This document shows positions 38,104-41,564 of a stretch of DNA of 64,000 bases, piece by piece. The notes under the pieces are model-generated. The model saw only the letters and a list, made by a program, of their open reading frames with translations, made no database searches and was not told where the DNA came from. Location: assembly GCA_018873225.1 (NCBI GenBank), contig JAEILZ010000004.1:1426001-1490000 (forward strand), given 5' to 3'. The position numbers and the translations under genes were made by a program. Source of the DNA: [Phialemoniopsis] sp. UDSM-2020. Its lineage: Eukaryota > Ascomycota > Sordariomycetes > Thyridiales > Thyridiaceae. Within the stretch, counting starts at the first letter, position 1, and each line of letters opens with the position of its first letter.

Positions 38104-39281
38104 ATGGCAACTGCTATAGCTACATCTCAAGCCAACACCGACGTCATGCAGGAGAAGGTCGCAGGACCTCTCAAGACGCCGATCCTCGCACCTACGGCGA
38201 GCAGCAAGCCGGAGAAGCGTGCCGCCTTGACTGTCGACCAGCGGGAGAAGTACGAATGGCTTCTTGAGCAGGTCAAGGGCTGGACAGAGATCAAGTCCGA
38301 CAAGGGCAAATCTGGCCCGCTGACCGACAGCGAGCGCATGTGGCTCACCAAGGAGTGTCTGTTGCGGTACCTCAGAGCAACCAAGTGGCACCAGAAGGAG
38401 TCGCTGAAGCGGCTGCACGACACCGTCCTTTGGAGGAGAGAGTACGGCGTCGAGGAGCTGACCGCCGAGCACATTTCTCCCGAGAATGAGACTGGCAAGC
38501 AGATCCTACTGGGTTATGACAAGGAGGGACGTCCATGCCACTACTTGAACCCAGGTCGACAAAACACCGACCCGACTCCACGACAGGTTCAGCATCTCGT
38601 GTACATGGTGGAGCGTGTCATCGACCTGATGCCTGCCGGACAGGAGATGCTGGCGCTGCTCATCAACTTCAAGACGAGCAAGTCTCGCTCAAACACTGCC
38701 CCAGGCATCAGCACCGGCCGCGAGGTCCTGCACATTCTCCAGACACACTATCCCGAGCGCCTTGGTCGTGCCCTCATCATCAATGGTTCGTGAACTTCCC
38801 TCCCCTGAATTGGATGACTACCTTTACTAACTCTCAGCCAGTCCCCTGGGTTGTCTGGGGTTTCTTCAAACTCATCACTCCTTTCATCGACCCGCACACC
38901 AAGCAGAAGCTCAAGTTTAACGAAGACATGACACAATACGTGCCCAGCGAACAGCTCTGGACCGAGTTCAGTGGTAAGCTCGAGTTCGAGTACGACCACG
39001 ACGTCTACTGGCCAGCCTTGCAGAAGCTGGCCCAGGAACGCCGAGAGGCCAGGACCAAGCGGTGGACTGAGGGCGGAAAGCAGATCGGAGAGTCCGAAGA
39101 CTTCCTAGCTGGTGCGCTCGAGCACGGTGTTGCGGGACTCGCTGAGACGAAGGTCGCTGACCCTACCGCAAAGATTGACGATAGTGCGGCCGATGCAAAG
39201 GTCGAAGACCTCAAGGTGGACGAGCTCAATATTACTGAAGAGGCGAAGGCCGAGGAGAGTAAGACCGAGGCGACCTCATAA
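38104..39281 (+). CDS. Sec14-like phosphatidylinositol transfer protein (Pdr16-type)
   Basis: Two exons, 38104-38785 and 38842-39281, give 373 residues, with a GTTCGT donor, TTACTAAC branch site and CAGCCAG acceptor. The N-terminal CRAL-TRIO-N helices (LTKECLLRYLRATKWHQKES) precede the lipid-binding CRAL-TRIO domain (LLGYDKEGRPCHYLNPGRQN, VYMVERVIDLMPAGQEMLAL, ALIINVPWVVWGFFKLITPF). The C-terminal tail is charged and repetitive (EEAKAEESKTEATS). The last part of the lipid-binding pocket comes from exon 2. Pdr16-type proteins move phosphatidylinositol or sterol between membranes and influence azole tolerance in yeasts; that role is by family. The start is the first ATG of the frame. Confidence 0.88.
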
Positions 39282-39461: not shown

Positions 39462-39468
39462 AAAAAAA
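39449..39468 (-). terminator. Pol III terminator of tRNA-Lys copy A
   Basis: Read on the minus strand, a run of seven T (39468-39462) is followed after four bases by a run of nine T (39457-39449). This is the expected Pol III stop signal, about 40 nt downstream of the tRNA 3' end. Confidence 0.7.
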
Positions 39469-39477
39469 CAGGTGCGT

Positions 39478-39494
39478 TCCAGAGTGACTCTGGA
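39478..39494 (-). repeat. trailer hairpin of tRNA-Lys copy A
   Basis: Minus strand TCCAGAG-TCA-CTCTGGA, a perfect 7-bp stem with a 3-nt loop, located between the mature tRNA end and the T-run. The same stem occurs in copy B with a different loop. Confidence 0.65.
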
Positions 39495-39517
39495 GCATCG
39501 GGAATTGAGCCCGATGC
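39495..39517 (-). repeat. inverted repeat joining tRNA-Lys copy A 3' end and its trailer
   Basis: GCATCGGG at the tRNA 3' acceptor side is followed after seven bases by its exact complement CCCGATGC in the trailer. The precursor could form this 8-bp hairpin in place of the acceptor stem. Confidence 0.65.
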
Positions 39518-39638
39518 GGGGGTCGAACCCGCAACCTTGAGATTAAGAGTCTCACGCTCTACCTATTATGATTGTTAGTGGCTTGTCTGGTAGAGAGAAA
39601 CCATGGGAATAGAAGCTTACCGATTGAGCTAACCGGGC
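39508..39638 (-). tRNA. tRNA-Lys(CUU), copy A, interrupted in the D-loop by a GT-AG intron
   Basis: The gene has two parts on the minus strand: 39638-39621 (18 nt) and 39562-39508 (55 nt). Joined, they give a canonical 73-nt tRNA: acceptor GCCCGGT/ATCGGGC (one G-U), D-stem GCTC/GAGC with loop AATCGGTA, anticodon stem TGAGA/TCTCA with loop CTCTTAA (anticodon CTT, lysine), T-stem GCGGG/CCCGC with TTCGACC, and discriminator T, as in yeast tRNA-Lys(CUU). The 58-bp insert (39620-39563) lies between G18 and G19, not at the usual 37/38 site. The A box (TAGCTCAATCGG) stays intact because the insert begins with G; the B box GGTTCGACC is normal. Ordinary tRNA finders may call this a broken gene because the split is in the D-loop. 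Confidence 0.85.
39563..39620 (-). other. 58-bp spliceosomal-type intron in tRNA-Lys copy A
   Basis: The insert begins GTAAGCTTCTA and ends CATAATAG. It has a CTAAC branch motif at 39578-39574, whose A lies 12 nt from the 3' end. These are the donor, branch and acceptor features of fungal spliceosomal introns, and the length is typical of them. No bulge-helix-bulge form for the tRNA splicing endonuclease is apparent. Confidence 0.75.
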
Positions 39639-41388
39639 TGGTTGTCGGAGTGTTGCGTTAAACTACGCTACCCGTGTTATGCGTTGGATGCTCGGATTGT
39701 CGTGAGCCTCTTGCCCCTGGTCTCACTTATCTCTTCCCCGAGAGCATGCCATTCAATACCTGAGCTGTGTCTCACATACCTCCTATACTTATGCTGTACA
39801 ACTGTGACCAAACATCTTCCAAAGACTTCTTGTTTTGACCTTGGGCCAGCATTTCAGTCTTCTGCTGCCTTTGAAGCTCGCTTTATGGCTCGCTGTCTTC
39901 AAAAGACAGTCCCATAAGGCTGAGAGTGTGGTGTGAGAAGCCTGGTATTTTGTGCTGTAGTGTGCTTCTAAGTAATATTTCTCTGGAACAAGATCGAGTT
40001 ATTATGCAAACATCTTCTGTGCTTTGTGTATACGATTTGAACGCTGTGTTGATCAGCTGATACTGTAAGTGATTTGGCCCTTGCAATGTTGGTTTCAGAC
40101 TTGATTTCAAATGCGATGCTTTTCCGTCAAGCCTGCCTCGCACTAAATGTGCTACTGTTTGTGTTCATCTTGTGAGGATTTTGGATTGATAGGTGGTGAT
40201 ATGTAATATAGAATTCATGCTGAGGCTGAGGAGGGCAAATACCTAACCCGAAACTATTACACATCAGCAAGTTGTGCACACACTCACAATATCATAATGC
40301 GCAGCCCATCTGCCATGGCTGTACTGTCACGATCTTGAGTAGCCGCCGGCCTGCTGCGCAAGCCGCAATTTTCTGTATCTTAGAGTAGCTTCAACAACTA
40401 TCTGCCAACTGGATGTGCAGCCCTGTTTATTTGAGGCGCTGAACGGGCTCCCGACCCTGTGGTGCAGGCCCCTGAGCCGATTGAATGTCAGCCGGACTGC
40501 TACCCTGTTACAACGCAAAGCTGTATGTAGATCTAGACCGATGTTCATCATTTTGTTTGGGCTCTCTCTAGAGTGGACATTGTGTAATCCTAAATGGATG
40601 CATTGTGTTGACTGTGTTATATTAAAGTTTGTTCATTGTGTTGACGGGGTATTGCTTTCTGTCATATGAATAATTAATAACCTTTGGGCTTCAGCTTCTT
40701 AGAAAAGATAATCAGATCTAGTAAAACAGATTTAATGCAATCTACACAATAGAACCTGAACGGGTTAGAGTTCGAGACGCAGACAACGACCTGGGGGATC
40801 ATACTGGCATTGGTGAAGAGGGCTCATCCGCCTGCGAATAGGGTTATTGGCCAATGCTATGTCGAGACCAAGAGAGATGTAGTTTGCACATCGCATTGAG
40901 ATCTGGTGAAGTCTGTGACTGTATAGCTGTGACAAGAGGGCGATGGATTGAGAGTAAGGAGTGGATTGTAGAATAGCTAATGGCTCCAGGATATCATGCC
41001 TTGGTGCGTCCCCTCCTCATTGTCAACTGCGAGCATGGTTGACCTCTCACTCAGGGTTTCTTGAATCATACCGTCTTCTCTTCAGCATTATTGTCCAAGA
41101 CTACCACTCACCTTTGCAACCTTTCTTACTAAACTCTAGTCCCTCTTGAATCTTACAAGTGTTCTTTGAATGCACTTACACCAAGTTGGATTTCTTTCAT
41201 CAAGCAAGGATTTCATACCATTCGAAGCCCCTCCCTTAGTGAGCATGAAGTTGCTATACTGAGCCTGGAGGCCTTTGAGCCTGCTAATTGTATGTCTTGT
41301 GGGCTTAAAAGTCGAGTGCTAATTGTGTCAAGAACACATGAAACGCATAACGTGCGTAGCGCAGATTAGCAAAACTTTCTGGCATTCA
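39639..41388. other. AT-rich gene-free spacer between two divergent tRNA-Lys genes
   Basis: About 1.75 kb bounded by the 5' ends of the two tRNA genes. No coding frame is convincing. The outer about 47 bp on each side are related to each other (inverted). A short direct repeat CATTGTGTTGAC occurs at 40601-40612 and 40634-40645. The composition is AT-rich with many TG/TT steps, compatible with decayed repeat DNA, but I recognise no transposon domain or terminal repeats. Confidence 0.5.
40601..40645 (+). repeat. short direct repeat CATTGTGTTGAC, two copies
   Basis: Exact 12-bp copies at 40601-40612 and 40634-40645, spaced by 33 bp, inside the spacer between the tRNA genes. A partial third copy (CATTGTGTAA) lies at about 40578. 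The meaning is unknown. Confidence 0.55.
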
Positions 41389-41515
41389 GCCCGGTTAGCT
41401 CAATCGGTAAGCTTCTAGGTCTGGTTCCTCGACGAGATAAGCCTCTAACAACCATAATAGGTAGAGCGTGAGACTCTTAATCTCAAGGTTGCGGGTTCGA
41501 CCCCCGCATCGGGCT
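41389..41515 (+). tRNA. tRNA-Lys(CUU), copy B, interrupted in the D-loop by a GT-AG intron
   Basis: Two parts, 41389-41406 (18 nt) and 41461-41515 (55 nt), are identical in sequence to the exons of copy A and fold into the same 73-nt tRNA-Lys with anticodon CTT. The 54-bp insert (41407-41460) is at exactly the same position, between G18 and G19 of the D-loop. The copy lies in opposite orientation to copy A, so the two genes are transcribed away from each other. Identical exons combined with diverged intron middles indicate that the mature tRNA sequence is under selection, and hence that both copies are probably functional genes and not pseudogenes. Confidence 0.85.
41407..41460 (+). other. 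54-bp spliceosomal-type intron in tRNA-Lys copy B
   Basis: The first 11 bp (GTAAGCTTCTA) match the copy A intron. The 3' part has CTAAC at 41445-41449 with its branch A 12 nt from the end, and the last 8 bp (CATAATAG) match copy A. The middle differs in length and sequence. This pattern of conserved splice sites and a free middle is what spliceosomal constraint produces. Confidence 0.75.
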
Positions 41516-41528
41516 CAATTCCCGATGC
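41506..41528 (+). repeat. inverted repeat joining tRNA-Lys copy B 3' end and its trailer
   Basis: GCATCGGG, seven bases, then CCCGATGC, identical to the arrangement at copy A. It could form an 8-bp hairpin that competes with the acceptor stem. Confidence 0.65.
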
Positions 41529-41545
41529 TCCAGATATACTCTGGA
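41529..41545 (+). repeat. trailer hairpin of tRNA-Lys copy B
   Basis: TCCAGA-TATAC-TCTGGA, a perfect 6-bp stem. Copy A has the same stem with loop GTCAC, so the stem is kept while the loop changes. Confidence 0.65.
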
Positions 41546-41557
41546 ACAAGCACCTTC

Positions 41558-41564
41558 TTTTTTT
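41558..41564 (+). terminator. Pol III terminator of tRNA-Lys copy B
   Basis: A run of seven T, 43 nt after the mature tRNA end, matches the spacing at copy A. Confidence 0.7.

Follow-up and report, generated by a model that had tools for sequence, protein, structure and literature searches.

Transcripts of RNA polymerase III (Pol III) are unusual substrates for the spliceosome; spliceosomal introns are known in the U6 genes of some fungi, and Canzler et al. 2016 reportedly described a spliceosomal intron in Pol III-transcribed U6 genes. The Pol III-made U6 of Schizosaccharomyces pombe has a spliced intron of the mRNA type, thought to derive from reverse splicing (PMC10484740). Fungal U3 snoRNA genes also carry normal spliceosomal introns (PMC5832005). 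Splicing of nuclear tRNAs is described as an endonuclease-ligase process that takes place without the spliceosome (PMC13149111, PMC3400036). In Cyanidioschyzon merolae, ectopic tRNA introns with BHB-like sites are described, including introns in the D-loop (PMC3978253). The program tRNAscan-SE 2.0 seeks noncanonical introns in its archaeal mode with BHB models (PMC8450103), and should therefore not report the inserts that we describe here. Our searches of an open-access paper library turned up nothing on tRNA genes with spliceosomal introns, which is not proof of absence.

The window analysed here is a stretch of 64,000 nucleotides, C6:1426001-1490000, in a genome of 44,176,824 bases on 11 contigs (written C1, C3 and so on). 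It has a GC content of 52-58% and contains intron-bearing coding genes. An asparaginase encoded in the window shares 92% identity with one of Thyridium curvatum and 70-82% with the other 119 matches listed, which points to a Thyridium-like filamentous ascomycete as the host. Two tRNA-Lys(CUU) genes are found in the window, 1.75 kb apart and in divergent orientation. The gene on the plus strand covers 41389-41515, with exons at 41389-41406 and 41461-41515 and the anticodon CTT at 41476-41478. It is interrupted after G18 by a 54-nt intron of spliceosomal type (41407-41460), in which we read GTAAGC at 41407-41412, CTAAC at 41445-41449 with the branch A at 41448, and TAG at 41458-41460. The gene on the minus strand covers 39508-39638 (exons 39621-39638 and 39508-39562), and its 58-nt intron of the same type, also after G18, is located at 39563-39620, with GTAAGC, CTAAC at 39574-39578 (branch A 39575) and TAG. 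The preliminary description had claimed two Lys(CUU) genes with D-loop inserts of 58 and 54 nt, and its coordinates and motifs proved correct to the base upon direct reading.

The exons of the two genes are identical over all 73 nt (73/73). The inserts share GTAAGCTTCTA at the 5' end (11/11) and match at 18/20 positions at the 3' end, and in both the branch A lies 12 nt from the 3' end, whereas in their middles only 18 of 28 aligned columns match. This agrees with the earlier observation that the insert ends and CTAAC are conserved while the middles have diverged. Outside the genes, 42/65 positions match upstream and 61/124 beyond the trailer. Internal boxes were read in the sequence of the plus-strand gene against the known consensuses, giving an A box TAGCTCAATCGG at 41396-41407 (from T8) and a B box GGTTCGACCCC at 41494-41504. 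With the A box taken as tRNA positions 8-19 (PMC3978253), it remains unbroken despite the insert, as in the other Lys genes, because the first G of the intron replaces G19. A search of the window with Rfam matched each Lys gene at model positions 9-63 only, and ARAGORN called no tRNA on the whole window. When the insert was removed, ARAGORN named both genes Lys(ctt) and the MFE fold of both was a cloverleaf, confirming that a whole 73-nt tRNA-Lys is obtained upon its removal.

When the joined exons were searched against the genome, five Lys(CUU) genes and a remnant were recovered. The three additional full genes are located at C7:3.50 Mb (minus strand; 59-nt insert, GTCCGT..CTAAC..CAG), C1:8.45 Mb (minus strand; 59-nt insert, GTTCGT..CTAAC..CAG) and C7:1.21 Mb (plus strand; 57-nt insert, GTATGT..CTAAC..CAG), and each also has an intron at 37/38. 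Their split point is identical to that of the window pair and their insert sequences are quite different, so that each of the five full Lys(CUU) genes found is split after G18. The 5' sites GTCCGT at C7:3.5 Mb and GTTCGT on C1 are weak at +3/+4; in these copies GTAT is found four bases inward and is a possible alternative 5' site, the use of which would lengthen the D-loop by four. The remnant (C5, approximately 1106450-1106492) is a break product in which a T arm and trailer directly abut a second, inverted trailer, head to head.

Three pattern scans of the genome were done in addition. With at most one mismatch, a pattern of the Lys anticodon and T arm was matched at four places, two of them Asn genes and the others the pair in the window. 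No place matched a pattern built from an intact Lys D arm joined to the anticodon half, with at most two mismatches. The pattern from the 3' side of the D arm to the anticodon, with at most one mismatch, gave seven places: the five Lys(CUU) genes, a Lys(UUU) gene and one other sequence. Thus, neither these three patterns nor the joined-exon search found an uninterrupted Lys(CUU) gene in the genome. The preliminary description had said in advance that many intact Lys(CUU) genes elsewhere would speak against it; the patterns and the exon search gave no such gene. The Lys(UUU) gene (C7:2845926-2846023) has an unbroken D arm and an ordinary 37/38 intron, and is named Ile(TAT) by ARAGORN; therefore, of the Lys genes observed here, those for Lys(CUU) alone carry the D-loop insert. 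In 11 open reading frames of the window, taken from stop to stop, there are 174 AAG codons versus 38 AAA. Without Lys(CUU), one route for reading AAG remains, which is wobble by Lys(UUU). A scan for the Lys arrangement in viral contigs and in contigs of prokaryotic genomes, the latter being a set that says little, gave no matches.

Inserts of the same kind are present in four other isotypes. Those of Ser and Gln were recognised in two genes from the list of the tRNA family (RF00005), and the Met gene adjoins a listed gene and was shown by ARAGORN. The Ser(GCU) gene (C10:2992201-2992353) has a 48-nt insert, GTGAGT..CTAAC..CAG, between G34 and C35, and a 37/38 intron too; the two introns are separated by a three-base exon, CTA. 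The Gln(CUG) gene (C4:6073465) has a 59-nt insert at 34/35, GTACGT..CTAAC..CAG, and the Met(CAU) gene (C8:1427974) a 51-nt insert at 33/34, GTAAGT..CTAAT..CAG. We take this Met gene to be of the initiator type, as it has A1-U72, three G-C pairs below the anticodon loop and an ATCGAAA T-loop. The Leu(CAG) gene (C10:1364101-1364248), located through a pattern of an A box followed by a 5' site, has a 56-nt insert in the D-loop, GTACGT..CTAAC..TAG, as well as a 37/38 intron, and its exons without the insert equal those of an uninterrupted Leu(CAG) gene on C5. Searches with single tRNAs gave two genes each for initiator-type Met, Gln(CUG) and Ser(GCU); in every case one of the two lacks the insert, and Met and Gln are 96% identical to their uninterrupted paralogues.

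In total, nine interrupted genes of five isotypes were found (five Lys and one each of Leu, Ser, Gln and Met). They are 9 of the 54 nuclear tRNA genes seen (47 from the RF00005 list plus Met, Leu and the five Lys), a number that is not a genome-wide share since 63 of 930 candidates were scored in the RF00005 search and the list is incomplete. Contig C3 (28,924 bases), with 15 of the 62 tRNA matches, was taken as the mitochondrial genome.

All nine inserts, 48-59 nt in length, begin with GT and end with YAG, and all contain the branch motif CTRAY (CTAAC in eight, CTAAT in one) with the branch A 10-15 nt from the end. They are located in the D-loop (five Lys, Leu), at 34/35 (Ser, Gln) and at 33/34 (Met), none of them being at the canonical 37/38. 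These varied positions fit a signal carried by the insert itself. Five of the nine genes have a separate, ordinary 37/38 intron that lacks spliceosomal signals. When random segments of the window in six matching lengths were drawn, 62 of 2,000,000 carried GT, YAG and a CTRAY 8-18 nt before the end, while the eight inserts known at that point all passed the same test and the ninth (Leu) fits it too. None of eight ordinary tRNA introns passed; we placed their boundaries by eye, and the set omits at least four more introns, of Leu and Asn genes. A chance origin of the signals was ruled out by the random-segment control (62/2,000,000), and an accident confined to one duplicated pair by the seven additional genes elsewhere.

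It should be noted that the splice signals were not used in finding the Lys genes, which came from homology, or the Ser, Gln and Met genes, which came from a tRNA model or ARAGORN. The Leu gene was located by way of its 5' site, and the evidence from it is therefore limited to the branch, the 3' site and the restored exons. A pattern of a 3' splice site before a D arm matched 11 places versus 58 in a reversed control; the 11 are the five Lys genes and six that we deemed chance by eye from their context. The pattern of an A box and 5' site, which excluded two of the Lys genes by design, matched 59 places versus 107 in the reversed control, three Lys genes being among them. Among the remaining 56 places we looked for a T arm whose 5-bp stem is perfect, a requirement that may miss some, and retained one, the Leu gene. 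Because the matches are fewer than in the reversed controls, the splice-signal patterns alone prove nothing.

As a yardstick for coding introns we used the 56-nt intron of a CRAL/TRIO (Sec14-like) gene at 38786-38841 on the plus strand of the window, which reads GTTCGT...CTAAC-11 nt-CAG. Joining the exons across it restores the whole Pfam domain (E 3.3e-46). The 5' site GTTCGT is common to this intron and the Lys insert on C1, and in length (48-59 nt) and 5' site the inserts are within the range of coding introns, as judged from this one well-supported 56-nt intron.

The interrupted genes are easily mistaken for other tRNAs. Cutting out no more than an intron at 37/38 would leave GGT, CGT and GTA at positions 34-36 of Ser, Gln and Met, which is why ARAGORN names these Thr, Thr and Tyr; overall, it calls the interrupted genes Thr, Tyr, Ile or Pro, or misses them. 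Since tRNA finders miss or misname such genes, others may be hidden in fungal genomes. ARAGORN also misnames two genes with ordinary introns, Ser(GCU) on C1 and the Lys(UUU) gene, and a misassigned name is therefore not in itself evidence of a spliceosomal intron.

Several features suggest that the interrupted genes work. With the inserts removed, all nine are named by ARAGORN as expected: Lys(ctt) five times, Gln(ctg), Met(cat), Ser(gct) and Leu(cag). Of the eight spliced sequences folded, three (the window pair and Met) have the full cloverleaf as their MFE structure, and the rest need the usual tRNA constraints. Four Lys lineages differ at the anticodon-stem pair 28-42, with G-C, A-T, C-G and T-A, and compensated changes are also seen at pair 29-41 (A-T or T-A) and at the T-stem pair 49-65 (G-C or A-T). 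In Met, pair 7-66 is G-C versus A-T in the paralogue, changed on both sides. These compensatory changes in Lys and Met imply selection on the structure of the tRNA. Internal A and B boxes can be read at all nine loci, and a run of at least five T is found within 55 nt downstream of all nine genes; for a run of at least six T this is the case for eight of nine, the background being 0.76% of random places. From the sequence we infer that the interrupted loci would be transcribed by Pol III, and that their transcripts would be spliced, charged and used.

The motif WATAA is found at -40 to -20 (around -28) in five of the eight interrupted genes examined, compared with 6 of 45 among other nuclear tRNA genes (Fisher p 0.006). 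It is absent upstream of the ninth interrupted gene, Leu, and we place no weight on it as it was picked post hoc.

The Lys genes share an unusual 3' trailer. In the plus-strand window gene it covers 41516-41564 and contains CCCGATGC (41521-41528), a second hairpin and a terminator-like T7 (41558-41564). CCCGATGC is complementary to GCATCGGG (41506-41513), the end of the T stem plus acceptor, 7 nt away. The trailer of the minus-strand gene (39462-39507) has the same complementarity (39495-39517) and a T7 at 39462-39468. The pairing of CCCGATGC with GCATCGGG is 8/8 in four full Lys genes and the remnant, and 7/8 at C7:1.21 Mb. The trailer covaries with the tRNA, such that where the T-stem pair 49-65 is altered the trailer is altered too. 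In MFE folds of spliced RNA plus trailer, the trailer hairpin displaces the acceptor stem in four of five copies, with an advantage of 2.2-4.4 kcal/mol versus a fold in which the cloverleaf is held, and in the same four copies it also forms in the unspliced RNA. The Ser, Gln, Met and Leu trailers are unlike that of Lys. One idea is that the Lys trailer might delay folding of the acceptor stem until splicing.

We suggest, with a probability of roughly 0.86, that these loci are working nuclear tRNA genes, transcribed by Pol III, that carry spliceosomal introns. In brief, Pol III would transcribe them from the internal A and B boxes to the T-run, the spliceosome would excise the GT..AG insert via the branch A of its CTAAC motif (CTAAT for Met), the tRNA endonuclease would separately remove an ordinary 37/38 intron if the gene has one, and RNase P, RNase Z and CCA addition would complete the tRNA. 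The proposal of spliceosomal-type introns in nuclear tRNA-Lys(CUU) genes is supported at the level of sequence, by the lack of an intact Lys(CUU) gene among the searches above and by the same signals in seven more genes. This suggests that the mRNA-splicing machine also takes part in the making of tRNA in this fungus. The Lys(CUU) intron is probably old, because five copies share its site and the splice signals were kept while the interior diverged. Leu, Ser, Gln and Met each have an insert-free paralogue, so there the insert would have been gained later or lost once. Such introns may have originated, for example, by reverse splicing, as proposed for U6.

Alternatively, the inserts might be cut out by an endonuclease, either that of tRNA splicing or a different one, as is presumed for the ectopic introns of Cyanidioschyzon merolae, among which D-loop introns are described (PMC3978253). 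The BHB score gives 3-6 of 10 pairs for the inserts and 6-8 of 10 for ordinary 37/38 introns; as the two are not clearly separated, the score leaves room for structure-guided cutting and was not used for the main claim. A complete 4-bp central helix was seen in none of eight inserts (Leu lies outside the eight), a count that discriminates poorly. Such an enzyme would have no use for GT, CTRAY and YAG, and these are nevertheless the parts that persist while the interior changes; a separate intron at 37/38 that lacks them is present in five of the nine genes. An unknown D-loop endonuclease had been considered as the alternative in the preliminary description, and the spread of the inserts over three kinds of position and five isotypes speaks against it. 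We consider cutting by an endonuclease quite improbable.

The interrupted copies could also be dead relics whose introns were acquired by retroposition or recombination, while other genes supply the tRNAs. Uninterrupted paralogues do exist for Met, Gln, Ser and Leu, and one truncated Lys remnant is found on C5, but such relics are hard to reconcile with five of five full Lys(CUU) genes being interrupted, with compensated stem pairs, with intact boxes and T-runs, and with splice signals retained in diverged inserts; we regard it as very improbable. Barely credible, in our opinion, is that Pol II transcribes the loci into RNAs that are spliced, contain a tRNA-like portion and function outside translation. 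The spliceosome usually acts on Pol II transcripts and the conserved trailer of the Lys genes is unusual, but all nine loci have T-runs and A and B boxes, the products are exact tRNAs of five isotypes, and another full source of Lys(CUU) was not found.

If the genes are spliced by the spliceosome as they look to be, it would accept tRNA precursors whose 5' exons measure 18-34 nt, AAG decoding would depend on pre-mRNA splicing, and the intronless paralogues would provide a natural system for studying intron entry into non-coding genes. We speculate further, at somewhat less than even odds, that the spliceosome is an obligatory tRNA-maturation enzyme here: all Lys(CUU) would pass through it, two splicing machines would work one after the other on the same precursor (on either side of the three-base exon in Ser(GCU)), and the covarying Lys trailer would keep the acceptor stem open until the RNA is spliced.

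Three U6 matches are found in this genome (C6:154783, C5:1318111 and C9:709155), all uninterrupted. One of them scores low (47.9 bits) and has a divergent sequence, perhaps being a pseudogene, and two have AAATAAC approximately 21 nt upstream.

The tRNA inserts resemble the U6 intron in being short spliceosomal introns in a Pol III transcript, but the host there belongs to the spliceosome itself, whereas the hosts here are tRNA genes of five isotypes. With the introns of fungal U3 they have in common that spliceosomal introns occur in a structured non-coding RNA; U3, however, is not a tRNA, and here the splice sites are found within genes with 72-92 nt of exon. The ectopic introns of Cyanidioschyzon merolae and archaea are similar in that they may lie in the D-loop and that a gene sometimes has more than one intron (PMC3978253, PMC9602550). 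Those introns are tied to BHB motifs, whereas the inserts here have spliceosomal signals and, by a weak score, a complete BHB in 0 of 8. The ordinary eukaryotic 37/38 intron occurs in the same precursor in five of the nine genes and differs from the inserts in position, sequence signals and presumed enzyme. The type of intron is known; as far as we could see, tRNA genes are new as its hosts.
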